Part shown: in pieces, positions 2,083 to 40,974 of the stretch
Layout of the letters: every line of letters starts with the position of its first letter
Position numbering within the stretch: the stretch's first letter is position 1
Source: an uncultured Opitutia bacterium
GTDB lineage: Bacteria > Verrucomicrobiota > Verrucomicrobiia > Opitutales > Opitutaceae
DNA length: 64,000 nucleotides
NCBI GenBank assembly: GCA_903827245.1
Contig: CAIKHO010000001.1
Location: forward strand, 1-64,000
Direction of reading: 5' to 3'
Translations under genes and position numbers: made by a program
Notes under the pieces: generated by a model
Seen by the model: only the letters and a program-made list of their open reading frames with translations
Databases searched by the model: none
Told to the model about the DNA's origin: nothing

Positions 2083-4110
2083 CTAGGGTACCGCGAGTGC
2101 GACCAGCTCGGCCGGGGTGCCGCGCGCGCCGGTGGCGACCACGATGTACTGCTTGTCATTGACCATATAGGTCATGGGCACGCCGGTGGTACTGGCGGGC
2201 AGCTCCATCTCGAAGACGATGGCGCCGGTCTTCTTGTCGATCGCGCGGAAGAATTTCCCACCGCCTCCGGGACCGGCATTGAACAGGCCCGAACCGTCGG
2301 CGCCGAAGAGCAGCGTCTTGGTCACAAGCAGCGGGGAACGCTCCGGCCGGCCGGTGTTCTTGACCTCGATGCCTTTCAGGGCCGGGTTGCTTTTCACGGC
2401 GTCCGGGACATCGCCGTTGGGGATCATCCACACGTGGTCGCCGGTATTCAGGTCGATCGCGGTGATCCGGCCCCACGGTGGTTTGATCAGGGGCAGCCCC
2501 CGAGGCCCGATATTTGGCCGGGCGGGGCCTTCACCTGTGTAGCGCGGCTGTCCGCCCTGTTGCTGCGGGGCGTCGCCGGCCTTGGTCGCCGTGACGGCGG
2601 TGCTCTGCGCGCCGACATAACCCATGTCCGAGCGCTTGGGGTCGGCGGGAGCAATCGACAGGCCGTCCGGATTCGTCAGGGAGGAGACATAGAGAATACC
2701 GGTTTCGGGATCGAATGCTCCTCCCGGCCAATTGGCGCCGCCCGTGTGGTTCGGCAGGAACAGCGTGCCCAGCTTGCCGTTGGCGCCGCGGAGGCCGGGG
2801 GGCAGGAACATCGGGCCCGTTTCATACTTGGCCAGGATGTCGATGGCCTCCTTCCGCAGCTCCGGCGTGAAATCGATGAGGTCGTCGACCGTGATCCCCT
2901 GCCGGTCGAAGGGCGCGGGCTTCGTCGGGATCGGCTGCGTCGGCGACGTTTTCTCTCCGGGCACGGTGGACTGCGGCACCGGCCGTTCCACGATGGGCCA
3001 GACGGGCTTGCCGGTGACGCGATCGAACACGTAGGTGTACGCCTGCTTGCTCACCAGGGCGACGGCCTTGATCTTTTTTCCATCGACCGTGATGTCGGCG
3101 AGCAGCGGCGGCGAGGATGGCTCCCAATCCCAGATGTTGTGGTGCACGATCTGGAAGTACCAGATGCGCTTGCCGGTTTTCGCGTCGACGCACACGAGAC
3201 TGTCGCCAAAGAGATTGTTACCCGGGCGGTTTCCGCCGTAGAAATCGCCGGTGGGAGTCTCGACGGGCAGGTAGACATAGCCGAGTTCCTCGTCGGCGGC
3301 CAGAGGGGCCCAGGCGCCGGTGTTTCCGGAGTATTTCCACGAATCGTTCTCCCAGGTCTCGACGCCCTCCTCGCCCGCGTGGGGAATGGTGCGGAAGGTC
3401 CAGATGCGCTTGCCGGTATGGACGTCGTAGCCGCGGACGTAGCCGGGCACGTTCTCCTTCGAAGCCGGTGCGGTGCCGGCGAGCAGGGCCGCGCCCACCA
3501 CCACGACGTCTCGGATGACAATGGCCGGAGAACTGGACCCGATCTGACCCGGTTTCACGACGTCCCGGTCCAGGCCCTCGGTCAACTCGACGATGCCTTC
3601 CTTGCCAAATCCAGGGATCGGCCGGCCGGTCTTGGCGTCGAGCTCCACCAATTGAAAACCCGGCGAGACGAGAAGGATCCGGGTGTCGTCCTTGCCGTCC
3701 GTCCAGTAGGCGAGGCCCCGGTTTTGCGTCCGCACCGCGCGGTCGCCGCGCTCGCCCTCGTCCAGGCGGTACATCCACAGGGTCTCACCGGTGGCCGCGT
3801 CCGCCGCGACGACGTCGCGCCGGGACCCGGCTGTGAAATAGAGCACGCCACCGACCATGAGGGGGGTTACCTCCCAATTGTAGTCGGCCCGCGGGCCGAA
3901 ATTCTCGGCCTTCCACCGCCAAGCAACTTCCAGCTCTTTAACGTTGGAAGCGTTGATCTGGTCAAGGGGGGCGTACTTGGTGTTGCCGGCATCGCCGCCG
4001 TAGAAGCGCCACTCCCCGTTGGTGGTGCCGTGCTGGGCCTGCACGCGGCCGGTGGCCGCGAGGAGCATGACCGACAAGAGAACCCAAGACCGGAGTACGG
4101 ATGATTTCAT
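2083..4110 (-). CDS. PQQ-dependent (quinoprotein) dehydrogenase, beta-propeller
   Basis: 675 residues beginning with a Sec signal peptide (about residues 1-25, ending VQAQ), so it is periplasmic. The mature start GGDAGNTKYAPLDQINASNV is the hallmark of glucose/quinate-type PQQ dehydrogenases. Several propeller-blade repeats of the form D-x-x-T-G-x-x-x-W follow (DAATGETLW, DVHTGKRIW, DAKTGKRIW, DLNTGDHVW). No CxxCH is present, so it has no haem of its own. It would oxidise an alcohol or sugar using PQQ and pass electrons to the c-type cytochrome encoded just upstream. The ATG overlaps the stop of that cytochrome gene by four bases, which fixes the start and implies translational coupling. The substrate is unknown, and no PQQ biosynthesis genes are in the window. 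Confidence 0.88.
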   Translation of the reverse strand: MKSSVLRSWVLLSVMLLAATGRVQAQHGTTNGEWRFYGGDAGNTKYAPLDQINASNVKELEVAWRWKAENFGPRADYNWEVTPLMVGGVLYFTAGSRRDVVAADAATGETLWMYRLDEGERGDRAVRTQNRGLAYWTDGKDDTRILLVSPGFQLVELDAKTGRPIPGFGKEGIVELTEGLDRDVVKPGQIGSSSPAIVIRDVVVVGAALLAGTAPASKENVPGYVRGYDVHTGKRIWTFRTIPHAGEEGVETWENDSWKYSGNTGAWAPLAADEELGYVYLPVETPTGDFYGGNRPGNNLFGDSLVCVDAKTGKRIWYFQIVHHNIWDWEPSSPPLLADITVDGKKIKAVALVSKQAYTYVFDRVTGKPVWPIVERPVPQSTVPGEKTSPTQPIPTKPAPFDRQGITVDDLIDFTPELRKEAIDILAKYETGPMFLPPGLRGANGKLGTLFLPNHTGGANWPGGAFDPETGILYVSSLTNPDGLSIAPADPKRSDMGYVGAQSTAVTATKAGDAPQQQGGQPRYTGEGPARPNIGPRGLPLIKPPWGRITAIDLNTGDHVWMIPNGDVPDAVKSNPALKGIEVKNTGRPERSPLLVTKTLLFGADGSGLFNAGPGGGGKFFRAIDKKTGAIVFEMELPASTTGVPMTYMVNDKQYIVVATGARGTPAELVALAVP

Positions 4111-27219: not shown

Positions 27220-29034
27220 TCACAGCGACTCTTGGTCGACACTGGCGCGGCGCGTGTCGGGCACACCGGCGGAGTTGGTGACGGAGAAATCCGTGACCTT
27301 GCGCAGCACGAAAAACGGCGCGCCGCCGGCGCGCTGCGCCTTGGCATGGTCGAATTCGACGCCCACGACGTCGTCCAGCACAACCGCCGGGCGCGTGTCG
27401 TCCTTGACGAAGCCGACCTCGATGTCGCGGAAGCTGAGATGTTGCGCGTGGCGGACGTAGATGCCGTAGGCCGGCAGCAGTCCGAACATGGAGGGCTCGG
27501 GATAGGCTTTTTCCTGTTCGGGCGGAAGATAGGGATCGTGCGGGCCCGCGAGACCGGGGCCGCGGAGAAAGAAGGTATTCACCAGGTCGGCCGGCTGCTG
27601 GGCCGCTTGTTCGAGGTTGAGGCCGCCGCGGGAGAGGACGCGGATGTCGTTCAGGCGGACGTCTTCGATCGGGTGGCCGGGCAGGCCGGCGATGATGATG
27701 GGATAGCGCGCATCGACGTCCGACGCCGTGACGTGGCTGATACTCACGCGGCGAATGATGCCGACGGGCGTGCCCTCGGGACCGCGCGCGCGGTTGCCGA
27801 GGCGGAGGAAGATCGCCGAATTGGAAACGTTGCGCATGGTGATGTTGCTGACGACAACATCCTCGATGACGGCGCCGTCCACCGACTCGAACGCGAGGCC
27901 GCGGCTGCGGTCGAAGACGCAATTGGTGATGGTGATGTTCTTGAAGCCGCCGTTGGACTCGGTGCCGAACTTGATGCGGCCGGTCGGGCCGTCACGGTCG
28001 TTGGCGCGTTCCTGGGTGTGCTTGAAGGTGCCGTCGAGGAAGGAGCCCGGGTCGTAGCCGCTGACCTGGCAGCCGGTGATGGTGAAGTTTTCGCAGGAGC
28101 GGAGCTCACCGAGTGCATAGGAACTCTTGAGCACGATGGCGTCATCATTGATGGCGTTGACGCTGCAGTTGACGATGCGGACGTTGCGGCACGCATCGAT
28201 GTCGAAACCATCGCGGTTGGTGTCCACTTTGAGATTGTCGATGGTGAAATTGTCGACGCCGGTGGCGAGAAGGGCGAACCAGCCGCCCTGCAGGATGGAG
28301 AAGTCACGCAGGATGACATTGCGGCAGTTTTTCAGGGCGATGGACTTGTTGCCACCGGGCCCTCCGCCGAAACCGCCGCCGCGGCCTCCCGGCGGCGGTG
28401 TGGCCCCGGCGGGCACGGGCGCGGCCGGGGGTGGCGGTGGCGGCGTGCCGGCCACTGTGGCGGGATCAGGCGTGCCATTCGGCCCGGCCCCACCGGGGGG
28501 ACCACCGCGTCCGCCGCGACCACCGCCGCCTCCGGGTCCATTCGCGCGCGAAAGGCCCTGGCCGAAGATCAGGCCGGGACCGGTGATGGCGATGTTCTCC
28601 AGATTGTCGCCCCAGATGAGGCTGTTGTGAAAATGGCTGTGGCCGTAATCCTGATATTGGAACTTGTCGCCCCATTCGTTCGGCTCGGCGGTATCGTAGC
28701 TTCCCAGCTCGGGCGAGGCAGTGGCCGCGACGATGGTGGAACCTTGGTCGAGATGGAGCGTGATGTGGCTCTTCAACCGGATCGAAAAACTCAGGTAAGT
28801 GCCGGCAGGAAACTCCACGGTGCCCCCGCCCGCGGCCGCGGCGGCCTCGATGGCCTTGTTGATGGCGGACGTATCAACCGTCTTGCCGTCGCCCGTCGCG
28901 CCGAATGCGCGGACATTATAAACCTGTCCGCCGGCTGCGGCGACGGGCGGATTGGTTTGCGCAGGAGCGTGGCTCGCGAGCAAGGGGAGGAGGAGCAAGA
29001 CCGGCAGGTGCCGGCATGAGATGGACAATGGCAT
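27220..29034 (-). CDS. GH28-family polygalacturonase-like hydrolase with Gly/Pro-rich insert
   Basis: 604 residues from the ATG at 29034, which opens a signal peptide (MPLSISCRHLPVLLLLPLLASHA); an in-frame ATG thirteen codons upstream is less likely. The pectate-lyase-like start YNVRAFGATGDGKTVDTSAI is followed by an insert of roughly 75 residues very rich in Gly and Pro (about residues 165-240). The catalytic segments then follow: NRDGFDIDAC, INDDAIVLK and GRIKFGTES. The C-terminal quarter (PDLVNTFF-like to the end) extends beyond the usual GH28 size. It is separated from the previous GH28 gene by 86 bases, so co-transcription is likely. Confidence 0.86.
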   Translation of the reverse strand: MPLSISCRHLPVLLLLPLLASHAPAQTNPPVAAAGGQVYNVRAFGATGDGKTVDTSAINKAIEAAAAAGGGTVEFPAGTYLSFSIRLKSHITLHLDQGSTIVAATASPELGSYDTAEPNEWGDKFQYQDYGHSHFHNSLIWGDNLENIAITGPGLIFGQGLSRANGPGGGGGRGGRGGPPGGAGPNGTPDPATVAGTPPPPPPAAPVPAGATPPPGGRGGGFGGGPGGNKSIALKNCRNVILRDFSILQGGWFALLATGVDNFTIDNLKVDTNRDGFDIDACRNVRIVNCSVNAINDDAIVLKSSYALGELRSCENFTITGCQVSGYDPGSFLDGTFKHTQERANDRDGPTGRIKFGTESNGGFKNITITNCVFDRSRGLAFESVDGAVIEDVVVSNITMRNVSNSAIFLRLGNRARGPEGTPVGIIRRVSISHVTASDVDARYPIIIAGLPGHPIEDVRLNDIRVLSRGGLNLEQAAQQPADLVNTFFLRGPGLAGPHDPYLPPEQEKAYPEPSMFGLLPAYGIYVRHAQHLSFRDIEVGFVKDDTRPAVVLDDVVGVEFDHAKAQRAGGAPFFVLRKVTDFSVTNSAGVPDTRRASVDQESL

Positions 29035-29175
29035 GATGAAGCAGGTTAAGGGGTAGTTGAAGCGCCTGCCCAAGACGGTCTGAACAGGCTTAAGCCAGAC
29101 GGATCATACCGGGGAAGGATGCATCCGGGAGCAAGATTGCCGCTGCTCCGTTCATCAGGGAAATCAATCGGCTGC

Positions 29176-29198
29176 TAGGCCGCGAGCGTGCTCGCGCT
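29176..29198 (+). repeat. REP-like palindrome, copy 2
   Basis: A 23-base unit with TAGGCC followed by GCGAGC-GT-GCTCGC and GCT. It matches 21 of 23 bases of the minus-strand unit at 21093-21115. Confidence 0.6.
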
Positions 29199-29305
29199 CA
29201 GGCGTTCCAAAGCGCCTGCAAGCGGGCGGCCTATCGATTGCGTCCGATAAGACCGAAAATGCTCTAACGGCGAGTGGAGCCTGGCCGAATCGATTGTGGA
29301 TGCTG

Positions 29306-29331
29306 GGACGGCGACCTCCCGGTCGCCGTCC
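29306..29331. repeat. Perfect palindrome with TCCC loop
   Basis: Arms GGACGGCGACC and GGTCGCCGTCC (11 bp) enclose TCCC. The 14-base core CGACCTCCCGGTCG is identical to the core of the palindrome at 14406-14427, 15 kb away. Confidence 0.6.
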
Positions 29332-29415
29332 GACGCGACGGGGACACCGCGCCACCATCAGGGGCGTGGCATCGAGGTTGAGCCGCGCCCGCACGATGAT
29401 TCATGCGCTCGGAAA

Positions 29416-30519
29416 TTACCGGAGCGTCACGTCCCAGACCTTGGAGCGCCGGGACTTGCCCGCCGGGCCCTCGACGTTGAGCACGACGACGTATTGGCCC
29501 GTTTTTTCGTAGGTATGGACGGGGTCCTGCTCGTCGGATGACTTGCCGTCGCCGAAATCCCATTTCCAAGAGGTGACCTTGCCGATGGATTCGTCCTGGA
29601 AGGCGACTTCCCGCCGGTCGAGATTGCGGATGGTGAAAGACCAGTCGGCCTCGATCGCCTTCTGGAACTGGGGTTCCAGCGGCATCAGCTTGAACGCGCA
29701 GAGTTCGGAGGCCTGGCCGTACATCGTGTGCTTGGGCGAGAGGTTCCAGAACGAGTGCGCGCCGCTGTTCACATCATCGTAGTCCATGATGGCCCAAGCC
29801 ATGCCGATGATCTTGTTTTCGGTCAGAACGGATTCGACCGAACGCGCGGGTCCCTCGGCGGCGGCGTAATCGAAGGGCGTGATCCAAAATTCCATGGTCA
29901 CACGGCCGGCCTCGCCAGGCTTCACCGTGTAGGAATAAGCGACGTTCGAGTAAGGCATTTTTTTTATCCATGCCGCCTGCGGGCCCCAGGCCATGCACCA
30001 GTCCTTGCCTTCCGCCGGGACGAAAATGTGATAATTCTGCGCATGGTTGCCTTGGAAAGAAAACCAGGCTTCCCGCGGAGAGATGCCCTTGTCGGGGTGA
30101 AAACGGTCGATGAACGGGCCGCCGGACCGGTCGCCGTCCACGGCGAGCTCGAAGGTGTCGTTATGGAGATCGGGCCGGGAAAAGTCCCAATAGTCATCGT
30201 ACGCCTCGTAAAGGAAATAAAGCCGGTTGAGTCCCTTGACCCAGCCGACGCGAATCTTCACGTCGAGGCTCTTCGGGTCGGGCGACTTGCCCAGGGCGGC
30301 GCCCGAGTCGCCATGCAGCTGGTCTGAGCCGATGATGTAATCGTTGGGCACGATGGCCCAATCGTCGGCTTTGCCGTCGATCTGCGGGATCTTGCCGGCG
30401 GGAAACTGGAAGATCTTGAAGTTTGCGTCCGCGCGCTCGAGGGCGCTGGCGGGGCGTCCGCTGCAAAGCGCCACAGCGGCGGCAAACGCGAAAAGATAGT
30501 GGCGGGTGATGATTTTCAT
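29416..30519 (-). CDS. Exported CBM9-like plus PKD domain protein (paralogue A)
   Basis: 367 residues. A signal peptide (about residues 1-27, ending ASALERA) is followed by a CBM9/DOMON-like sandwich beginning IPQIDGKADDWAIVP and spanning roughly residues 35-265. Near the C-terminus is a PKD domain with its signature WKWDFGDGKSSDEQDPVHTY and VVVLNVEGPAGKSRRSK. No catalytic motif is visible. The protein would bind carbohydrate outside the cytoplasm, perhaps to hold pectin or present it to the neighbouring GH28 enzymes. It is about 65-70 percent identical by eye to the gene just upstream, with 31 bases between them. Confidence 0.82.
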   Translation of the reverse strand: MKIITRHYLFAFAAAVALCSGRPASALERADANFKIFQFPAGKIPQIDGKADDWAIVPNDYIIGSDQLHGDSGAALGKSPDPKSLDVKIRVGWVKGLNRLYFLYEAYDDYWDFSRPDLHNDTFELAVDGDRSGGPFIDRFHPDKGISPREAWFSFQGNHAQNYHIFVPAEGKDWCMAWGPQAAWIKKMPYSNVAYSYTVKPGEAGRVTMEFWITPFDYAAAEGPARSVESVLTENKIIGMAWAIMDYDDVNSGAHSFWNLSPKHTMYGQASELCAFKLMPLEPQFQKAIEADWSFTIRNLDRREVAFQDESIGKVTSWKWDFGDGKSSDEQDPVHTYEKTGQYVVVLNVEGPAGKSRRSKVWDVTLR

Positions 30520-30550
30520 GGGGCGGGTGTTGGGGAGGGGAAAAGAGTGC

Positions 30551-31681
30551 TCATCTGAGCTGGATGTCCCAGACTTTTGAGCGCCGGGATTTGCCGGCCG
30601 GGCCTTCCACGTCGAGGACGACCACGGAGTTGTTCCGGGCCTGCTTGTAAGTATGGACGGGGTTCTGCTCGGTCGAGGATTCACCGTCGCCGAAATCCCA
30701 TTTCCATGCGGTGACCTTGCCTTGGGATAGATCCTTGAAGGCGACCACGCGCGCATCGGGATCGATCACCTTGAAGGACCACAGGGCCTGGATCGCCGGC
30801 ACAAACTGCGGTTCGAGCGGCATGAGCTTGAAGGCGCAGAGCTCGGTGGCGTTGCCGAACATCGTGTGCTTGGGCGACAGGTTCCAAAAGCTGCGCTTGT
30901 TGGAATTGGCGTCATCGTAGTCGATCACGGCCCAGCTCATCCCGATGATCTTGTTCTCGGTCAGCACGGACTCGACGGCGCGCTGCGGTCCCTCGGGTCC
31001 GGCGTAATCGAACGGAGTGATCCAGAACTCGAGGATCAATTTGCCCGGCTGGCCCGGCTTGAAGTCATAGACGCACTTCGAGTTGGCCCACGGGAACTCC
31101 TTGATCCAGGTCGCGGAGCTCCAGGCCATGCACCAGTCCTTGTCCCCGGGCGGCGTGAAGATGTGGTAGTTCTGCGCGTGGACGCCGTGAGTCGCCCAGT
31201 GGAGCTGGGACACCGTTAGCCTGGGGTCATTCGCGGACATTTCCGGCCCCACGGCCTCGGGGCTCCAGACGTCGCGGTGCCCGTGGTCGATCAGCGGACC
31301 GCCGGAGGCGTCGCCGTCGACCACGACCTCGAAGATGTCGTTGTGCAGGTCGGTCCGGGAGAAGTCCCAGTAGTTGTCGTAGGCCTCGTAGAGAAAATAA
31401 AGCCGGTTGAGTCCCTTGACCCAGCCGACCTTGACCTTGACGTCGAGGTCCTTGAGGTCGGGCTTGGTGTGGCCGCCTTCGTCATCGGTGAGCTGGTCGA
31501 TGCCGATGGCATAGCTGTCCGGCACCATGGCCCAGTCGTCGGTCTTGCCGTCGATCCGCGGAATCTGGTCGGCGGGAAACTGGAAGACCTTGTAGGTGAC
31601 ATTGGGTTTCTCAAGGGCAACGGCGCGCAGGCCGCCGAGAACGGCCAGGGCCGCGAGGATGATATGGCGCAGATTTCGCAT
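30551..31681 (-). CDS. Exported CBM9-like plus PKD domain protein (paralogue B)
   Basis: 376 residues with the same plan as paralogue A: signal peptide (MRNLRHIILAALAVLGGLRA), CBM9-like domain from IPRIDGKTDDWAMVP, and a PKD domain with WKWDFGDGESSTEQNPVHTY. It differs mainly by a ~15-residue insertion around residues 150-165 (WSPEAVGPEMSANDPRL). Shared blocks such as VGWVKGLNRLYFLYEAYD and SVLTENKIIGM are identical. The two genes are a tandem duplication that has diverged, in one probable operon. The function is binding or scaffolding by domain content only. It lies upstream of the pectin block on the same strand. Confidence 0.82.
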   Translation of the reverse strand: MRNLRHIILAALAVLGGLRAVALEKPNVTYKVFQFPADQIPRIDGKTDDWAMVPDSYAIGIDQLTDDEGGHTKPDLKDLDVKVKVGWVKGLNRLYFLYEAYDNYWDFSRTDLHNDIFEVVVDGDASGGPLIDHGHRDVWSPEAVGPEMSANDPRLTVSQLHWATHGVHAQNYHIFTPPGDKDWCMAWSSATWIKEFPWANSKCVYDFKPGQPGKLILEFWITPFDYAGPEGPQRAVESVLTENKIIGMSWAVIDYDDANSNKRSFWNLSPKHTMFGNATELCAFKLMPLEPQFVPAIQALWSFKVIDPDARVVAFKDLSQGKVTAWKWDFGDGESSTEQNPVHTYKQARNNSVVVLDVEGPAGKSRRSKVWDIQLR

Positions 31682-31806
31682 GGGGGTGAATAATTCGCTG
31701 GGTTTAAGGCTGGATGGGGGAAGCGGTGGGGACGTTTTTCTCAGGAGCGGACGGCGCCGGAAGCATTGGGGCAAGACGCATGTTTTGGGGGATTGAGCCT
31801 GGGGTA

Positions 31807-32943
31807 TCAGGAAAAAAATATCCGCTGCACGAGCCAGTACGCGCCCAGGGCGGAAATAACCGTCGAGACGATGACCGTACCCGCTCGGGCCAAGGCGGGG
31901 GATGAGCGCATTTTCCACAGTCCGAACAAAAATAGGACTGCCACCGCGGCCTGGGCCAGCTCAAGTCCAAGATTGAAGGAAACAAGGGCCGCCACGGGGA
32001 CCCGTCGGCTGGAGGCGGCGGCCACCCTTAACGCCTGGGCGAAACCCAGGCCGTGGATCAGGCCAAAGGCAAAGGCGGTGCCCCAGCGACCCTTGGGCTC
32101 GTCGCGGCGGACGAGATTCTCGATGCCGACGTACATGATGGAAATCGCGATCAATGGATCCACCAAATGAGAAGAGGTGGTGATCAGATTAAGGGCATCG
32201 AAGGCCAGGGTGATCGAATATCCGAGCGCAAAGCACAGCGTCACGGCCACGACAGGGCGAAGCTTGCGGCCCGCGACCAGCAAGCCGGAAAGGAAGGCGA
32301 GGTGCCCGAATCCCGTCAGCAGGTTGGTCATGCCCAACCCGACAAATTTCCAGGGTGGGATGGCGGGCTGCGGCCGCATTGGCGGCAGGACCGCGGTCGG
32401 GACCGCAGATGGCCGGGCGGGGACCGCCGGTACCGTCTGCGATGGCACGTCCAGGTAGATGCGTTCAACGTTGAGGTCGTCCCAGGCGAGGCTCTTGTGG
32501 GCGTTGTCCTCGACAAAGACCGACGACACGAAACCCTCGGGCATCCGGTCGAGATAAGTCACGCGAATGCGCCATGGCCCGGCACCTGGCGGCGGATAGT
32601 AAACGTGGAATTCGATGTCCAGCTCCTCGGTCAGTTCGACGCTGGCGTCCTTGGGGGCGAGTACCTCGCCGGCCGCGGTGACTACAAAAAGCCCCAGCGC
32701 GGCCTGCTGGAGCTCGGGCAGGTAGTCCTCGAAATTATCGGAGATCAGCGGAGGCCGGCGGGCCCCGTTCTCGAGCAGGGACTGGGCGGCATAGGAGGCC
32801 ATGGTCGTCTGAACCTCGATGCCACCGTCCTTGAGGCTGACCGTTGTCCAGCTTTGGAGCGGATCGTGGGCCTGCGCCACGCCAGCGAGGGCGAAACCCA
32901 GCGCAGCGAACCAGAACAGCGGCCGTTGAAAGGAGATGATCAT
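31807..32943 (-). CDS. HupE/UreJ-like membrane protein with large N-terminal periplasmic domain
   Basis: 378 residues. After a signal peptide (residues 1-25, ending VAQA) comes a soluble domain of ~160 residues, then about seven helices from WKFVGLGMTNLLTGFGHLAFL to the C-terminus. The membrane half matches the HupE/UreJ group that carries AFGLIHGLGFAQAL and FNLGLELAQAAVAVL motifs. HupE/UreJ proteins are known or suspected nickel or cobalt permeases. The domain order is the same as in the 336-residue protein at the other end of this operon. It is the last gene of the five-gene run, 15 bases after the previous stop. Confidence 0.75.
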   Translation of the reverse strand: MIISFQRPLFWFAALGFALAGVAQAHDPLQSWTTVSLKDGGIEVQTTMASYAAQSLLENGARRPPLISDNFEDYLPELQQAALGLFVVTAAGEVLAPKDASVELTEELDIEFHVYYPPPGAGPWRIRVTYLDRMPEGFVSSVFVEDNAHKSLAWDDLNVERIYLDVPSQTVPAVPARPSAVPTAVLPPMRPQPAIPPWKFVGLGMTNLLTGFGHLAFLSGLLVAGRKLRPVVAVTLCFALGYSITLAFDALNLITTSSHLVDPLIAISIMYVGIENLVRRDEPKGRWGTAFAFGLIHGLGFAQALRVAAASSRRVPVAALVSFNLGLELAQAAVAVLFLFGLWKMRSSPALARAGTVIVSTVISALGAYWLVQRIFFS

Positions 32944-32958
32944 GGCCCGGGAATACCG

Positions 32959-33573
32959 TTAGCCGGTCTTGTGCAGGGACCAGCCGAGCAAGAGCAGCCC
33001 GGTTGCCGCGATCCAGCTTCCGGCGACCCGCACGACAATGCGCGTCCACGGCCGTCGCAGGGAGAGCACGAGGGCGGCGAAAAGCGCCACGAGGACAAAA
33101 AGGGTCGCCATGACCCCGAGCAGCTCGAGCAGGGCGTCGGATCCCGCCTGCCTGAAGGCGGCGCCATTGAGGAAGCCATGCATGAGGCCGAGCAGGATCG
33201 TGAGGAGGGTGACCACGACGGAGGGCAGGCTCAGATCGGCGGCAACGAGTCCGCCGAGCACGAGAAACGAAAAGGATGTGATGGGAAATACCGGGGGATT
33301 GCCCGCGAGCAGTCCGGTCATCCCGCCTGCGAGCCACGCCAGGGGAAGTGTAAACAAGGCATGGCGGCCCGGCGCGGGGCCGCGCAGGCCGGCAAAGAGG
33401 GCCAGCGCGATCACGGGAAGGACGTCGTCCAACGAGAGCATGAAATGGCCGATGCCATCGTAGACCGGCCCGAGTCCCGTGGTCACGAGATGGGCCCGGG
33501 CGGCACTGGGGGACAAGGCCAGGGCGACGGCCACCCCGGCGGCGGCCAGTTTTTGTTTCGAGGAGAACGACAT
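32959..33573 (-). CDS. HupE/UreJ-like membrane protein (degenerate motif)
   Basis: 204 residues, six to seven helices after a signal segment (about residues 1-27, AARAHLV). In place of the canonical HPxxGxDH it has GPVYDGIGHFMLSLDDVLP, so the metal-site His/Asp pattern is altered, while LLGLMHGFLNGAAF and the overall size match HupE/UreJ. The ATG (33573-33571) overlaps the TGA of the upstream gene by one base, indicating translational coupling. It is probably an inner-membrane partner or variant subunit of a metal uptake system. Confidence 0.74.
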   Translation of the reverse strand: MSFSSKQKLAAAGVAVALALSPSAARAHLVTTGLGPVYDGIGHFMLSLDDVLPVIALALFAGLRGPAPGRHALFTLPLAWLAGGMTGLLAGNPPVFPITSFSFLVLGGLVAADLSLPSVVVTLLTILLGLMHGFLNGAAFRQAGSDALLELLGVMATLFVLVALFAALVLSLRRPWTRIVVRVAGSWIAATGLLLLGWSLHKTG

Positions 33574-34184
33574 CACCGGAGTGCCTGCCAGAGAAAGACC
33601 GCGCCCATCACCGAGATCACGGCCCCGGCGCCGCGCAGGGCGAGCTTGCCGGCCCGCCAGTGATGCACGAGGCCGAGGCTGATGCCCACGGCATGCAGGG
33701 TGCCGGTGGCGATGACGAAGCCCAGGCTGTAAAGCAGGCCGCTCTGCCCGGGCGGAAGCTCCGTGCCGTGGGCATGACCGTGGAAGAGGCCGAAGATTCC
33801 CACCAGCACCACGGCGACGGCCAGCTTTGGCCGGACCTCGCCGCAGACCATGGCCCCGAGCAGCAGGGCTGAAAGGGCGATGCCGATTTCCACGCCGGGC
33901 AGGGGGATGCCGACCAGTCCCATGAACCCGCCCATCGCCATCACCATGGGGAAGGCGACGGGCAGGAGCCAGATCGCCGGCGCGCCCAGCTGTGCGCCCC
34001 AGATGCCGACGGCCAGCATCGCGACGATGTGATCCGCTCCTGACCAAGGATGCTTGAAACCGCTCGCGAATCCACCGACCTCGCCTTTTTCGATATGGGC
34101 ATGGGCGGTCTGGCTGAGCGCAACAAACGCGGCGGCAATGGCGGGAAGGGTCAGTTTGCGGGGAAGGTAGCGTGCGGGTTTCAT
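33573..34184 (-). CDS. HupE/UreJ-family nickel/cobalt-type permease
   Basis: 203 residues. It is the most canonical HupE/UreJ member in the cluster, with a cleavable-looking N-terminus (ALSQTAHAHIEKGE), the motif HPWSGADHIVAMLAVGIW, and the second conserved cluster FGLFHGHAHGTELP. These His/Asp residues are those implicated in Ni or Co transport by HupE. Seven helices are expected. The ATG at 34184 overlaps the stop of the upstream gene by four bases. Neither hydrogenase nor urease genes lie in the window, so the metal's destination is unknown. Confidence 0.85.
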   Translation of the reverse strand: MKPARYLPRKLTLPAIAAAFVALSQTAHAHIEKGEVGGFASGFKHPWSGADHIVAMLAVGIWGAQLGAPAIWLLPVAFPMVMAMGGFMGLVGIPLPGVEIGIALSALLLGAMVCGEVRPKLAVAVVLVGIFGLFHGHAHGTELPPGQSGLLYSLGFVIATGTLHAVGISLGLVHHWRAGKLALRGAGAVISVMGAVFLWQALR

Positions 34185-35191
34185 AGGAGCCCTTTGATCA
34201 GGATGATGGTCCGCTGGAGGCTCCAATAGACCCCGAGCGAACCGACGGTGTAGGCCGGCAGCATTTCCGCCCAGCGTTGCCAGCGGATTTCCAACAGGCG
34301 GAAGGAACGTTCGAGCAGGAGAATGACCAGGACAAAAAAGAGCTGGCCGGCCTCGACTCCGACATTGAAGAGCAGGAGAGCCGCGGGAATCTCGGCGTGC
34401 GACAAACCCAAGCTGGTGAGACCGCTCGCAAAACCGAAGCCGTGGAGCAGGCCGAAGGCGAACGCCACCACCCACGGGTGCCGGAGCGTGAGGCTCGTTT
34501 CGCCGCGCTGCTGCCGGATGATCTCCGGCCCGAGAAAGAGAATCGAGAGCGCGATGGCGGCGTTGAGCGGCGGGAGCGGCGCGCTGGCGTAGCCAAAGGT
34601 GGCGACGGCCAGCGTGATGCTGTGGGCCACGGTGAAAGCCGTGATGGTCTTGAGGAGCATCCAGCGATCCTTCACGATCAGGAGCAGGCCCATGACGAAC
34701 AGCAGGTGGTCGACGCCCATCAGGATGTGCTCGAGCCCGAGACGGAAGAACGTCGCGGCCTGATGCCAGCGGTCAGGGGCCGACTCGACCACAAACGACC
34801 GCTGCGACGGCGTCAGGCGGGCGATCTGGGTCGTCCCGTCGGTCCGCTGCAGCCGCACCAGCACGTCAGCCAGCGCCGCCATGGATCCCTGGATGCCGAT
34901 GAGACGCCCTTCGAGCCCGCCGGGGCAGGAGAGGGTGAATCGTTCCGTGTAGGCATTGCCGGCCTGGGCGATGATCGGGTCGGACGTGACCCGGCAGTTG
35001 TCAGGCCATTGCGGGCGGATGCCACGCTGGAGGTCGTCGCGCGCGGGCACCTTCCAAAGCACGTGAAACGTGTCCGGACCGGTTTGGTTTAATTCGAGGT
35101 AGGCCGGTTGCAGCTCATGGGCCTGAAGGACGGCCCGGAAGACCAGCAGGCCGGCGAGCACCGCGAAAAAAATATGGCGCAGCCCTCTCAT
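34181..35191 (-). CDS. HupE/UreJ-like membrane protein with N-terminal periplasmic domain
   Basis: 336 residues. A signal peptide (residues 1-24, QAHELQP) is followed by a ~120-residue extracytoplasmic domain and a seven-helix membrane part that begins RLGLEHILMGVDHLLFVMGLLL. Further motifs are AFTVAHSITLAVATFG and AFAFGLLHGFGFASGL. A short His near the mature N-terminus (AHELQPAYLEL) is a common first metal ligand in this group. The ATG overlaps the stop of the upstream foldase gene by four bases and the stop overlaps the next ATG by four. Confidence 0.78.
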   Translation of the reverse strand: MRGLRHIFFAVLAGLLVFRAVLQAHELQPAYLELNQTGPDTFHVLWKVPARDDLQRGIRPQWPDNCRVTSDPIIAQAGNAYTERFTLSCPGGLEGRLIGIQGSMAALADVLVRLQRTDGTTQIARLTPSQRSFVVESAPDRWHQAATFFRLGLEHILMGVDHLLFVMGLLLIVKDRWMLLKTITAFTVAHSITLAVATFGYASAPLPPLNAAIALSILFLGPEIIRQQRGETSLTLRHPWVVAFAFGLLHGFGFASGLTSLGLSHAEIPAALLLFNVGVEAGQLFFVLVILLLERSFRLLEIRWQRWAEMLPAYTVGSLGVYWSLQRTIILIKGLL

Positions 35192-35760
35192 TTTGCCGGC
35201 TCCGGGCCCGCGCCGCCGCTGGCATCCGGCTTCGGTCGCTCCACGACGACCGTGTAGTGTTCCTTCATCTTCCGGTAGGCCTCGTCGTTGGTCTGTTTGC
35301 GCCGCGCGGCCAGCCAGGCGCGCTGCACGGCATCCCGGACTTCAGGGAGCTGCGGATTGCGTCCCTGCTGGCGGAACATGGCGGGGTTGGCCTGCAGAAA
35401 CTGATTGAGCTGTTCGTCCGTGGGCGGGGTGGTCCCGACGCTGTCCTCAGTGAAGAACTCCATCTTCTCCCGCAGCCGGCGGCGGATGACCGGATCGTCC
35501 CGGTCCAGACCCTTGGCGATGGCCTCGCGGCACAGGACTTCTTCGCGAATGTAGTCCTCGATCACGGCGTCGAGCTCGGCGGCTGAGGGCGCGTGCTGCG
35601 TGCTGCGGGTGAAGCCAAGCTGCAGGTTCTCGATCAGGCCGCTGGTGATGACGATCTTGTCCGGCCGCTCGCCGGTCCAGCGGCCGACCAAGGCGAAGAC
35701 GCCGAAAAGGAGGGCGCCCAGCACAAGAAAGTGCACCAAGGGTTCGCGCAGAAATTTCAT
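35188..35760 (-). CDS. SurA/PpiC-like membrane-anchored foldase, no parvulin domain seen
   Basis: 190 residues. One N-terminal membrane helix (LVHFLVLGALLFGVFALV, about residues 8-25) anchors a helical region resembling the SurA/PpiC N-terminal chaperone module (ELDAVIEDYIREEVLCREAIAKG). The protein ends soon after (TVVVERPKPD), without the ~90-residue catalytic parvulin fold. It may therefore act as a chaperone, not as a prolyl isomerase. It is the first gene of a five-gene operon with four HupE/UreJ-like genes, its stop overlapping the next ATG by four bases. A role in assembling or loading those membrane proteins is inferred from this arrangement. Confidence 0.72.
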   Translation of the reverse strand: MKFLREPLVHFLVLGALLFGVFALVGRWTGERPDKIVITSGLIENLQLGFTRSTQHAPSAAELDAVIEDYIREEVLCREAIAKGLDRDDPVIRRRLREKMEFFTEDSVGTTPPTDEQLNQFLQANPAMFRQQGRNPQLPEVRDAVQRAWLAARRKQTNDEAYRKMKEHYTVVVERPKPDASGGAGPEPAK

Positions 35761-36096
35761 GGTGAACCATTCAACCGGCGGCAAAGAGACAGGCCCGGAG
35801 TCCGGCCGCAGGCGACATCGAGCGTGACCGCCCGCGAAAATCGTTTGCGCCTCGGCGACAGGAAAAGGCGGGGTAATCCTGGTGCGCGGGCTGCGCACAC
35901 GTGGGGGTCGGGGCCGGTTGCTATCATGGCTGGGTCACATCCGCCTTGGACGATCCCGCGGATCGTGGTCATGGTCGTCGCCAAGGATAACGCATCCGGG
36001 CGGATTAGGTGACGATGCTATGGAATAATAAGTCATTGAGGTGTCTCCCGGGCTCATCCGGCTTGGTGCGGTGCTTTCTGGCCAGTCCCGGTTGCC
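35761..36096. other. Upstream region of the HupE/foldase operon
   Basis: 336 bases without a supported gene. Because HupE genes are often under cobalamin or nickel control I looked on the minus strand for cobalamin riboswitch boxes and found none. The paired stretch GATC-CGCG-GATC near 35951-35962 is the only clear palindrome. Confidence 0.4.
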
Positions 36097-36954
36097 CTAT
36101 TTTCCCTTGGCCAACACCTGATTCAGCCAGGCGAGCATCCTGGGTTTGTAGTCCGGATCGGCGGACTCCCAGGCAAGCAGCCCGTGAGGCGCGCCCTTGA
36201 CGGTGATCAGCTCGCACGGCACATCGTTTTCCCTCAGTTTCGCAATGAAGTTGAGTGATTGCTGGTACGGCACGGTTTTATCCGCATCGCCCTGAATGAT
36301 CAGGAATGGCGGCAGGCCGGGCTTCACATGATTGATCGGGGAAATCCCGCGCAGGATTGCGCGCGATTCGGGGGTCACGTCCTTGGGCTGGTTGAGCAGG
36401 TTTTGCAGGGAAGTGCTGAGGCCGCCGCGCTGGACAAGATCCTGCTCGTGGTCGGTCACGGGCGCAAAACCAACGACGGCTTGCACCCGGGTGTCTTCAC
36501 TTGCGAGCGTGGCGGCGAGGCAGACCAGATGCCCGCCCGCGGAATGCCCGAAGAGCACGATGCGCCGGGGGTCGCCCTTATACTCGGCCGCGTGGGCCTT
36601 GACCCAGCGGATGGCGGTCTGCACGTCGTCGAGGCAGGCCGGCCAGCGGTTTTGCGGCGCCAGCCGGTAATTGATCGAGAACCAGGTGAACCTGGCCTCC
36701 GTCAGCGGAGCGAACCACGGCGTGATATCGGCGGAGTCACCGGGGGTGTTGCTTCCGCCCTTGTCACCGCGGCTCCAACCCCCGCCGTGGACCAGAATCG
36801 CGATCGGGTAAGATCCGGCGCCGTCAGGCACACTCGCATCGAGGCGCAGGCTTTCGTTGCCAGCCCGGCCATACTCGATGTCCCGCCTCAGATCGGCCCC
36901 GGCCGCGTGTAAGCACAGCATGGCTCCGGCCAGCAGGATCAGGATTATTTTCAT
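36097..36954 (-). CDS. Alpha/beta hydrolase, BD-FAE/HSL-like esterase, exported
   Basis: 285 residues from the ATG at 36954, which opens a signal peptide (MKIILILLAGAMLCLHAAG). The oxyanion motif HGGGW, nucleophile elbow GHSAGGH, catalytic Asp in QGDADKTVP and His in GAPHGLLAW complete a carboxylesterase triad. The same layout is common in secreted feruloyl or acetyl esterases of plant-polysaccharide degraders. The substrate is unknown; given the pectin genes 5 kb away it may act on esterified plant sugars. It ends 336 bases before the HupE operon, on the same strand. Confidence 0.85.
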   Translation of the reverse strand: MKIILILLAGAMLCLHAAGADLRRDIEYGRAGNESLRLDASVPDGAGSYPIAILVHGGGWSRGDKGGSNTPGDSADITPWFAPLTEARFTWFSINYRLAPQNRWPACLDDVQTAIRWVKAHAAEYKGDPRRIVLFGHSAGGHLVCLAATLASEDTRVQAVVGFAPVTDHEQDLVQRGGLSTSLQNLLNQPKDVTPESRAILRGISPINHVKPGLPPFLIIQGDADKTVPYQQSLNFIAKLRENDVPCELITVKGAPHGLLAWESADPDYKPRMLAWLNQVLAKGK

Positions 36955-37066
36955 GGGGGTTGTCAGCGCCGGGGATTCAGCGGTCCGGATGAATAAGGCC
37001 GGGCTCCTCATGACAGCCGAAGCGGCGGTTTTGTCGAGTTTACGTCTTTGACGCGTCCCGAAAATG

Positions 37067-37097
37067 AAGAACCCGGGCCTTATGCGCCCGGGTTCTT
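37067..37097 (-). terminator. Intrinsic terminator downstream of ilvB
   Basis: Stem AAGAACCCGGGC/GCCCGGGTTCTT (12 bp, loop 7) at 37067-37078 and 37086-37097. On the minus strand it is followed by CATTTT, and on the plus strand by TAGTTTG, so it can act mainly on ilvB transcripts. It lies 45 bases after the ilvB stop. Confidence 0.8.
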
Positions 37098-37142
37098 TAG
37101 TTTGTCGCCTCGAGGGCGGCTTTGATCCCGCGATCGGCGGGA

Positions 37143-38924
37143 TCACTTCAGGATCATTTCCTTCACCGTCTTGCCGGCGGGGATCATCGGCAGCACGTGC
37201 TCGGTGTACGGCACGATCACGTCGAGGACGTAGGGACCGTCATGGTCGAGCATTTCCTTGATGGCGGACCGGAGTTCGCTTTTCTTGATCACGCGCCGGC
37301 CCTTGACGCCGAAGCCGTCGGCGATCTTGACGAAGTCGGGATAGAGGCCGGCGGGGTTGTCGGGGCTGCCGACGTTGGACTCGTCGCCGAGGATGGTGTT
37401 GCCGCGGACGCTGCCGTAGAAACGGTCCTCCCACTGCACGACCATGCCGAGGTGCTGGTTGTTCAGGATCATGGCCTTGGCGGCGATCTTCTCGATGTGC
37501 GCGGTGGCAAGCTCCTGGATGTTCATCACGAAGGAGCCGTCACCGTCGATGTCGATGACCTGCTTGTCGGGGCAGGCGACCTTGGCGCCGAGCGCCGCCG
37601 GGTAGCCGAAGCCCATCGCGCCGAGGCCGAGCGAGCTGATGTAGCGGCGCGGCTCGTTGAAACGGTAGAATTGCGCGGCCCACATCTGGTGCTGGCCGAC
37701 GCCGGTGGTGATGATCGCATCGCCCTTGGTCAGCTCATAGAGGGCCTGCACCGCCTCCTGCGGGACGATGTGCTTGCTCTCGTCGTAACGGAAGGGAGTT
37801 TCCCTTTTCCACGTGGCGATCTGGGCGTGCCACGCCTTGGTGTCGGGCGGGGCGAACTTCTGCGCGGCGGCGAGCTCGTTGAGGCGGGTGAGCGCGTACT
37901 TGATGTCGCTGACGACGGGCAGGAGCACGCGCTTGTTCTTGTTGTGCTCGGAGGCGTCGATGTCGATGTGTACGATCTTCGCCTGCGCGGCGAACTTGCT
38001 TGTGTCGCCCGTGATGCGGTCGTCGAAGCGCGCGCCGAAACACAGCAGCAGGTCGCACTGGTCCACGGCCCAGTTGCCATAGGCGGCGCCGTGCATGCCG
38101 AACCACTGCATGGAGAGCGGATGGCTTTCGGGAAAGCCACCGATGCCCATCAGGGTCGTGGCCACGGGAACGTTGGTCTTGATCGCGAAAGCCTTCAGCT
38201 CGGCGTGCGCCTCGGCGGAGATGATGCCGCCGCCGGCGTAAAGCACGGGTTTCTTCGCCGAGCCGATCAGCGCCAAGACCTGCCGGAGCTGGTCATCGGT
38301 GGCATTCTGGGTGGCCGTGGCGTACGCGCTGCGGAACTCAACCGCCGGCGGGAAGACCGGCTGGAATTTCGCCTGCTGCACGTCCTTCGGGATGTCGATC
38401 ACGACCGGGCCGGGCCGACCGCTGCGGGCGAGGTAAAAGGCCTCCTTGAAGATCCGCGGCAGCTCCTTCACGTCCATCACGAGGTAGGAGTGCTTTACGA
38501 TCGGCAGCGTCATGCCGAAGAAATCCGTTTCCTGGAAGGCCATCTTCCCGATGTACTTTGAAAAAACCTGGCCGGTGATCGCCACCAGCGGGATCGAGTC
38601 CATGTAGGCGTCGGCGATGGCGGACACGAGGTTGGTCGCGCCCGGGCCGCTGGTGGCCATGCACACGCCGACCTTGCCCGTGGCGCGGGCGTAGCCCTCG
38701 GCGGCAAATGAACCGCCCTGCTCGTGGCGCGGCAGGATCGTGCGGATCTTGTCGGTACGGGCGAGCGACTGGTGCAGCTCCTGCGAGGCACCACCCGGGT
38801 AGGCGAAGATGACGTCGACCCCCTCGCGGATCAGGCACTCGACGACGCAGTCGGCGCCTTTCATTTCGCGGCCGATCTCGGCCTTGGGAAACGATGCGGG
38901 GGAGGTGTTGGTCTTCTTTTTCAT
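37143..38924 (-). CDS. ilvB: Acetolactate synthase large subunit
   Basis: 593 residues. This ThDP/FAD enzyme makes 2-acetolactate or 2-aceto-2-hydroxybutyrate in branched-chain amino-acid synthesis. Catalytic Glu lies in [20 protein letters not shown], the FAD-binding middle domain follows ([17 protein letters not shown]), and the ThDP/Mg motif is [14 protein letters not shown] through [16 protein letters not shown]. The ATG at 38924 gives MKKKTNTSP before the domain; an in-frame longer reading is non-coding in appearance. No small subunit (ilvN) is adjacent, so it is likely elsewhere. The terminator listed at 37067-37097 ends the transcript. Confidence 0.94.
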
Positions 38925-39172
38925 GGCAAATGGCTTTCGGCAAAAAGCCCCGTAATAAAGTGGAAACGGGCCCGGTGAGGCAAGCCTCGGGATTAAGGGC
39001 CGGTATAGTCTGATTACGAACGGCGAAAGACATTTTAGCCGCCAAGTTGCGAAGATACAAAGACCAATCCGGTGAGGTTCATTGAGCCATCGTCCCTGTA
39101 AGGCTAGGTTGACCGGCATTCCCGCTCGCTTTTCGGTTGGCGCACGCCGCCGGGCTGCGCACCTTGGGCGCC

Positions 39173-39955
39173 ATGCTGAAACTTCTTTTTATCGGCGACA
39201 TTGTCGGTCGGCCCGGCCGTGACATCGTGGCCGAACGCTTGCCCCGGCTTCGTTCCGAACTGGGACTCGATTTCGTGATCGCCAACGCCGAAAACGCCGC
39301 CGCCGGCGCAGGTATTACCGGGGCACTGGCCAAATCCATTCTGGAGAGCGGGGTCGACGCCATTACGCTGGGCGACCATGTCTGGGACCAGCGTGGCTGG
39401 GAAAACGAAATTGGAGAAATGGAACGGGTATGCCGCCCGGCCAACCTGCCGGCGTCCAATCCCGGATGGGATCACCTCATCATTGAGGCGCGCGGATTCC
39501 GGGTCGCCCTCTTCACGGTGCTCGGCCGCCAGTACATGGGGCTCAAGGCGGATTGCCCATTTCTTTGTGCCGACCGCATGATCGAGCAGCTGCGTGCCCA
39601 AGCCGACGCCATCATCGTGGAGATCCATGCCGAGGCCACCTCGGAGAAGCAGGCGCTGGGCTGGCATCTCGACGGCCGCGTGACCGCCGTGCTGGGCACG
39701 CATACCCATGTGCCGACGGCGGATGCCGTCGTCCTGCCCCAAGGCACGGCCTATATTTCCGACGTCGGCATGACCGGGCCCTACGCCAGCGTGCTCGGGC
39801 GCGAAGTGAAGCCGGTGATCGCCAAGTTCCTCGATGGCATGCCCCGTCGTTTTGAGGTGGCGGAGGGCGATGTGCGCCTTTCCGGGGCGCTGATTGAAAT
39901 CAGCGCGTCAATGGCGAGGGCGGAAAAAATCGAGCTCCTGAGCGTGCGGAAGTAG
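39173..39955 (+). CDS. YmdB-family metallophosphoesterase (TIGR00282 type)
   Basis: 260 residues. The dinuclear metal motifs are [51 protein letters not shown], and [10 protein letters not shown] near the end. These are the signatures of the YmdB/TIGR00282 phosphodiesterase group, which hydrolyses 2',3'-cyclic nucleotides in Bacillus. It is cytoplasmic and affects RNA turnover in known cases. The start is the ATG at 39173 ([13 protein letters not shown]), giving the family-like length. It is convergent with accA, only 38 bases between stops. Confidence 0.9.
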
Positions 39956-39993
39956 CGGGTCGAGGGGCGGTGCACACAGGCCGCGCCAAGGGT

Positions 39994-40974
39994 TCAGCTC
40001 CGAATGGCGCCGGCTTCGGTATAAATACCCAGGCGGCGAAAGCGGTCATAGCGGGTTTCGAGGAGCCGTTCGCCGTCGAGCCCGCGCAGATCGTTGAGAT
40101 GTTTCTGCAGGGCATAGCGCAGCGCCTCGGCAGCCTGCTTGGGATCATTGTGCGCGCCACCGAATGGCTCCGAAATGACTTCATCCACGACACCGAGTCG
40201 GGCGAGGGTGTCGGCATTGAGCTGGAGCGCCTCGGCGGCCTTGGACGCGGCGGCTGCATCCTTCCATAGGATCGCCGCACAACCTTCCGGCGAAATGACC
40301 GAATAATAGCTGTTTTCGAAGATCAAAACGCGGTCTGTCACCCCAATGCCAAGCGCCCCGCCCGAGCCGCCTTCGCCGATGATGACGGAGATAGAGGGTG
40401 TGCGCAGCATGGCCATCTCCCGCAGGTTGACGGCAATCGCCTCGGAAACATGGCGTTCCTCCGAGCCAATGCCCGGGTAGGCCCCGGGAGTGTCGATGAA
40501 AGTGAGAAGGGGAAGGCCGAATTTTTCCGCCATCCGTGCGAGACGCAGGGCCTTGCGGTAGCCCTCGGGCTGCGGCATGCCGAAGTTGCGGGCGATTTTC
40601 TCCTTGGTATCGCGGCCCTTCTGCTGGGCGATGACCACCACGGCCTGTCCGTTGAAAAATGCCGTGCCGCCGATCAGAGCGCGGTCGTCGCTGAACTGCC
40701 GGTCGCCATGCAACTCCTCGAAGCCCTCGAAGATCAGTCCGATGTAGTCGAGCGCGTAGGGCCGCTTGGGGTGGCGGGCGATCTGGACCTTCTGCCACGG
40801 GGTGAGGTTGGAATAGATTTCCCGCTGGGCCGCCTCGATGTCCTTTTCCATGGCAGCGATCTGGCCGGCGAGGTCGACATTGGTTTCGAGCGCCTGCTGG
40901 CGGAGTTCCTCGAGTTTCCGTGCGAGTTCGCGGAGGGGTTTCTCGAACTCGAGGATGTAGGTCGGCTTTTCCAT
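39994..40974 (-). CDS. accA: Acetyl-CoA carboxylase carboxyltransferase subunit alpha
   Basis: 326 residues, the normal size for AccA. It carries the carboxyl group from biotin to acetyl-CoA with AccD to make malonyl-CoA, the first step of fatty acid synthesis. Characteristic blocks are LTPWQKVQIARHPKRPYALDY, FMGDRQF-like LHGDRQFSDDRALIGG, FGMPQPEGYRKALRLARMAEKF, the oxyanion-type FIDTPGAYPGIGSEERHVSEAIA and IGEGGSGGALGIGVTDRV. AccD is not in the window. A small TPR gene lies 44 bases upstream. Confidence 0.96.
   Translation of the reverse strand: MEKPTYILEFEKPLRELARKLEELRQQALETNVDLAGQIAAMEKDIEAAQREIYSNLTPWQKVQIARHPKRPYALDYIGLIFEGFEELHGDRQFSDDRALIGGTAFFNGQAVVVIAQQKGRDTKEKIARNFGMPQPEGYRKALRLARMAEKFGLPLLTFIDTPGAYPGIGSEERHVSEAIAVNLREMAMLRTPSISVIIGEGGSGGALGIGVTDRVLIFENSYYSVISPEGCAAILWKDAAAASKAAEALQLNADTLARLGVVDEVISEPFGGAHNDPKQAAEALRYALQKHLNDLRGLDGERLLETRYDRFRRLGIYTEAGAIRS

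Follow-up and report, generated by a model that had tools for sequence, protein, structure and literature searches.

A five-gene array on the minus strand

An array of five open reading frames (ORFs) was found on the minus strand, from position 35760 to 31807, of a window of 64,000 nucleotides (nt), the whole stretch of DNA that was analysed, from an uncultured Opitutia bacterium (contig CAIKHO010000001.1, assembly GCA_903827245.1). In this array, here called the cassette, a SurA/PpiC-like foldase gene is followed by four tandem genes of the HupE/UreJ type, as was reported in an initial annotation of this DNA. All five ORFs start with ATG; the overlaps between successive genes are 4, 4 and 1 nt, and a 15-nt gap precedes the last one. 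The GC content by codon position was coding-like, with third-position values of 0.78-0.85 in all five genes. Because the same gene order was seen in other phyla (see below), the array is far beyond chance. The five genes, with the evidence used for each, are (aa, amino acids):

35188..35760, minus strand: gene 1, membrane-anchored protein of the PpiC family with a predicted SurA core and without a parvulin domain, 190 aa (ORF, alignment, AlphaFold model)
34181..35191, minus strand: gene 2, HupE/UreJ-2 permease with an N-terminal periplasmic beta-sandwich resembling Ang-1 and ZrgA, 336 aa (PF13795, AlphaFold model)
33573..34184, minus strand: gene 3, canonical HupE/UreJ permease, 203 aa (PF04955, alignment)
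32959..33573, minus strand: gene 4, divergent HupE/UreJ paralogue, 204 aa (PF04955, alignment of ten orthologues)
31807..32943, minus strand: gene 5, HupE/UreJ-2 paralogue carrying a larger periplasmic domain of its own, 378 aa (PF13795, motif table)

Genes 2 and 5 matched the Pfam family PF13795 (HupE_UreJ_2; 1.6e-44, 151.8 bits and 3.6e-33, 114.9 bits, respectively; curated cut-off 24.5), and genes 3 and 4 matched PF04955 (HupE_UreJ; 8.8e-54, 182 bits and 7e-13, 48.9 bits, respectively; cut-off 23). Throughout the 3.55-Mb genome, every PF13795 match falls inside the cassette. Genes 2 and 3 are members of known permease families, and genes 4 and 5 are divergent paralogues that fail the metal-motif test described below. 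Two copies had been annotated with extra N-terminal periplasmic domains of differing size; these are gene 2 and gene 5, the latter having the larger domain. A promoter scan revealed no promoter, and terminator-like sites were seen inside genes, only modestly above the level of shuffled sequences.

The parvulin-free foldase and its pairing with HupE genes

No Pfam or NCBIfam model matched gene 1 above its cut-off. The weak Pfam matches comprised the first half of Rotamase_2 (PF13145), under the cut-off, and a piece of SurA_N. When aligned to the full-length relative at locus L025, gene 1 and its homologues at L023 and L024 lacked a single uninterrupted stretch of about 100 residues, which is the parvulin domain, while the anchor and the N-terminal and C-terminal parts were kept. 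The alignment thus agrees with the original description of a foldase gene without its catalytic domain. The AlphaFold model of gene 1 (mean predicted local distance difference test, pLDDT, 89) was compared with solved structures using VIA, which gave Cj1289 (Z 10.2 over 130 residues), the SurA core (Z 8.4-8.7, with both isomerase domains skipped) and PpiD (Z 7.1); with Foldseek alone, no match reached an E below 0.001. As modelled, gene 1 is predicted to have the SurA-core fold. Its N-terminal anchor carries the motif EPLVHF. Among 81 sequences, the EPLxHF positions hardly vary (E 0.95, P 1.0, L 0.94, H 0.96, F 1.0), which would seem more than an inert membrane tether needs. We class gene 1 as an anchored chaperone of the SurA type in a parvulin-free form. 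The Escherichia coli protein PpiD can do without its parvulin domain but not without its membrane anchor (PMC2956729). The SurA core on its own is active as a chaperone, and core-only forms make up only about 0.5% of SurA homologues (PMC11401910).

The association of this foldase with HupE genes was studied in the best 80 of 278 gene-2 relatives, obtained from a genome scan with the gene-2 alignment; more distant relatives may be without a foldase. The foldase was absent from the query that retrieved these 80 loci, which derive from Verrucomicrobiota, Planctomycetota, Pseudomonadota, Bacteroidota, Myxococcota, Nitrospirota and Rhodothermota. A member of the EPLxHF foldase subfamily was found directly upstream of the gene-2 relative, on the same strand, in 80/80 loci. 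In 72 of them the AHE codons lie 48-127 nt past the foldase stop, and therefore the foldase and the gene-2 relative overlap or abut. The association also holds in the other direction. Among 194 Verrucomicrobiota genomes, foldase matches covering the anchor (E <=2.7e-43) occurred in four (G000, G035, G159 and G177), and all four adjoin a gene-2 relative; the remaining foldase matches leave out the anchor and fall largely on the generic parvulin region. No such foldase adjoins the other types of PF13795 gene in this phylum. This co-occurrence of foldase and HupE genes is stronger than initially proposed, though most of the foldases keep the parvulin domain, and HupE relatives of gene 2's type without the foldase were not found (0/80). 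A literature search for HupE together with peptidyl-prolyl isomerase or PpiC returned unrelated papers only. The foldase-permease pairing is real, general and widespread, and is absent from the literature searched. At one locus (L086:1769-6966, Luteolibacter marinus) we found two tandem foldase-HupE pairs, one of which is closest to Bacteroidota versions.

The foldases of 77 of the 80 relatives have a parvulin domain; those at L043 and L045 lack it, and the one at L071 is cut by the contig end. Five parvulin-less foldases were found in Verrucomicrobiota, namely those of the window, L043, L045, L023 and L024. In a tree of the shared foldase parts, the window, L043 and L045 formed one clade (support 100/98) and L023 and L024 another (99/98). 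None of 200 bootstrap trees needed just one parvulin change, though the strongly supported branches alone permit a single origin. The domain was probably lost in two clades, and its absence appears from the alignments to be a derived feature of some Verrucomicrobiota, outside the general foldase-HupE unit.

In nine of the 80 loci the longer gene order 1-2-3-4 was found, with overlaps of 1-4 nt in most of them. These loci span three phyla (Verrucomicrobiota, Planctomycetota and alpha-, beta- and gammaproteobacteria), the carriers being Limisphaerales, Opitutae, Verrucomicrobia subdivision 3, Planctomycetia, Ferirhizobium, Rhizobium, Mesorhizobium, Burkholderiales and one gammaproteobacterium. 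Among 387 Verrucomicrobiota genomes, a strong gene-4 match was present in the window's genome and G087 only; the cassette is therefore sporadic and probably spreads horizontally. At L043 and L045 the fifth position is occupied by the N-terminal domain of gene 5 alone, without the membrane part. The window copy is an unusually large, modified version of the chaperone-permease pair.

Metal motifs, N-terminal histidines and the periplasmic domain of gene 2

The initial annotation counted one full and one degenerate metal motif. We found instead two intact copies (genes 2 and 3) and two altered ones (genes 4 and 5). Gene 2 keeps HILMGVDH, HSITL and FGLLHG, an intact HxxxGxDH set, and gene 3 keeps HPWSGADH and FHGHAHG. 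In gene 4, HPxxGxDH is replaced by YDGxxH (YDGIGH) and FHGHAHG is gone. The motif is lost in 10/10 gene-4 orthologues, among which A27, H28, L29, D39, G40 and H43 are invariant. Gene 5 has the degenerate NLLTGFGH and GYSITL instead of HSITL, with FGLIHG as the sole motif kept; a gene-5 relative at L027 has an intact HIWTGYDH.

The likely mature N-termini of all four paralogues start with histidine (gene 2, HELQP; gene 3, HIEKG; gene 4, HLVTTG; gene 5, HDPLQ), the gene 2 cleavage site LQA/HEL being judged by eye. Since one of the two peptide patterns that retrieved the 80 loci contains AHE, the N-terminal histidine is biased in that set, and it was judged on other sets. It was present in 8/8 gene-3 relatives, in 10/10 gene-4 relatives and in 15/17 PF13795 genes selected on the membrane domain alone (L010 was read by eye; L019 and L020 were negative).

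The AlphaFold model of gene 2 (pLDDT 85) has a beta-sandwich at residues 29-135, with its strands at 30-134, ahead of the membrane helices. Comparison of this domain with solved structures (VIA) gave ZrgA (Z 10.0) and PA4063 (Z 9.9) as the highest-scoring matches. Against the Cu-bound Ang-1 structure 9GCE, Z was 7.7 over 103 residues (2.9 Å, 16% identity), which lies just under the tool's safe level of 8 and below ZrgA; in this superposition residue 25 of the model, a histidine, aligned to residue 1 of the 9GCE chain. A sequence search of the PDB with the gene 2, gene 5 and foldase alignments revealed no relatives. The Ang-1 domain, for which a crystal structure exists, binds Cu (Kd 74 nM) and Ni (220 nM) (PMC12537917). 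Given these nanomolar affinities for both metals, metal capture by the gene 2 domain would be the natural inference.

Proposed role of the cassette and its alternatives

As annotated initially, no urease or NiFe-hydrogenase catalytic subunit is encoded within the window. A complete operon for a urea ABC transporter (urt) and urease (ure), with no nickel permease gene in it, was found on another contig of the genome (L124, G000:C30:44000-60000). The window's genome has no NiFe hydrogenase, NicO or CbiM, in searches whose controls gave a signal, and no NikA above the cut-off; nickel superoxide dismutase was not found in a search whose control was silent. Since the urease has no permease of its own and NiFe hydrogenase, NicO, CbiM and NikA were missing at these cut-offs, nickel for urease makes sense locally, and urease, as the most obvious nickel customer in this genome, is a good local guess. 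As a universal customer of such cassettes we rejected it, given its presence in only 20/40 carrier genomes. A small histidine-rich ORF (3410-3760) flanks the urease operon in L124.

The commonest neighbour of the foldase-HupE units is DUF3604 (PF12228), found near 64/80 of them, many of the others lying on short contigs. DUF3604 is scarcely named in the literature searched, and the neighbourhood offers a functional lead for both DUF3604 and the pair. A protein of about 400 residues without a Pfam match, starting near ACAICFSG, also recurs beside these units (L049:3753-4952 and L062:3717-4952; also at L053, L089, L091, L093, L097, L099 and L057). In the window itself, two tandem paralogues of about 61% identity, each with a PKD domain at its C-terminal end, occupy positions 29416-31681 and adjoin a putative glycoside-hydrolase-like ORF at 27220-29073. 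These downstream PKD-domain genes were rejected as cassette members, as they were not found at L043 or L045.

We propose, with a probability of roughly 0.55, that the locus is an inner-membrane metal-acquisition cassette that combines periplasmic capture, uptake and its own assembly chaperone, and that spreads horizontally. Gene 1 would be a SurA-core chaperone that serves gene 2 specifically, fixed in the membrane through the EPLxHF anchor, and might help exported periplasmic domains or polytopic permeases to fold; the isomerase part, lost here, would be dispensable for this role. Gene 2 may capture a soft transition metal (Ni, Cu, Zn or Co) through the N-terminal histidine on its ZrgA/Ang-1-like beta-sandwich and pass it onward through the HupE membrane domain. 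Gene 3 would add a further HupE permease, of the classical type. Genes 4 and 5, which keep the N-terminal histidine and have lost the membrane metal motif, would most likely be non-transporting capture or regulatory partners. In the window's genome, urease may receive nickel from this system. Confidence is highest for metal uptake, lower for dedicated assembly and lowest for a multi-subunit complex. The multi-component metal uptake system with dedicated assembly that was first suggested thus gains a conserved foldase-HupE unit (80/80, with the four-gene order in nine loci), and its metal uptake part gains indirect support for capture, from the N-terminal histidines of four paralogues, the ZrgA/Ang-1-like domain and the Cu and Ni binding of Ang-1.

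Several observations weigh against parts of this proposal. The affinity of Ang-1 is higher for Cu than for Ni (PMC12537917), and urease occurs in only 5/9 genomes with the four-gene order and was not seen in the close relative L043. An Rfam search of positions 28000-40000 gave no riboswitch in or near the cassette, and upstream of gene 1 only short inverted repeats and no convincing operator were found. The five-gene relatives have no orthologue of the gene 5 membrane part, so decay could account for the degenerate motif there.

A bolder version of the proposal, which we regard as doubtful, is that the products of genes 2-5 assemble into a hetero-oligomeric metal importer made up of two true permeases and two pseudo-permeases that do no more than present N-terminal histidines, with gene 1 as an isomerase-free membrane chaperone specific to the permeases. 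If true, the general foldase-HupE pair would define a family of transporters equipped with a SurA-type chaperone of their own. The frequent presence of DUF3604 around the units suggests another possibility, that the foldase and HupE supply or load metal for DUF3604 rather than for the cytoplasm, the window cassette being an offshoot minus its client. This appears rather unlikely. No DUF3604 lies near L043, L044, L045 or L084, all of them carriers of genes 1 to 4, and we rejected it as a client of the window system after it was not found in the window's genome, though no control genome gave a signal in that search, which leaves its absence unproven.

That the paralogues come from two Pfam families, that the array is sporadic and that HupE genes are also found alone would fit four independent, redundant permeases stacked by duplication and gene transfer, with the foldase a general periplasmic chaperone co-expressed by happenstance. 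We consider this unlikely, as the pairing in 80/80 loci, the two-way exclusivity of the foldase subfamily within the phylum and the conserved order 1-2-3-4 all speak against such a stack, as do the gene 4 residues that stay invariant in ten orthologues from three phyla despite the lost permease motif. Export or sensing of a metal, in resistance or signalling, with the degenerate paralogues as metal sensors, is quite improbable. The direction of transport is unreadable from sequence and two paralogues are without a transport motif, but the functionally characterised HupE members are nickel uptake permeases (cited in PMC12537917) and neither a regulator nor a two-component gene lies in the cassette.

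The description of HupE/UreJ-2 permeases that have a metal-catching N-terminus dates only from 2025 (PMC12537917). The near-obligatory SurA-type partner points to an assembly route for these permeases and offers a clean genetic handle, and the parvulin-free versions are natural tests of which part of the chaperone matters for a single identifiable client.

Among known systems, gene 2 resembles the anglerase-HupE/UreJ-2 proteins (Ang-1; RbAng-1a, PDB 9GCE) in its likely signal peptide and mature N-terminal histidine, its predicted periplasmic beta-sandwich and its PF13795 membrane domain. Ang-1 is found mainly in Pseudomonadota, next to genes mostly of no known function (PMC12537917), whereas gene 2 belongs to a five-gene array in Verrucomicrobiota and has low sequence identity to RbAng-1a; PMC12537917 mentions no peptidyl-prolyl isomerase partner. 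The zinc-binding periplasmic proteins ZrgA and PA4063 have a fold in common with the gene 2 domain, but are separate proteins, whereas this domain is joined to a permease in one protein. Gene 3 shares HPxxGxDH and HGHAHG, both canonical, with HupE from uptake-hydrogenase clusters and UreJ from urease clusters (PF04955), but stands in tandem with three paralogues and not beside hydrogenase or urease genes. Gene 1 combines a PpiD-like N-terminal anchor with a SurA-core fold, as predicted from its model, and differs from both PpiD and SurA in having no parvulin domain, in being bound to one permease gene and in its conserved EPLxHF anchor motif.

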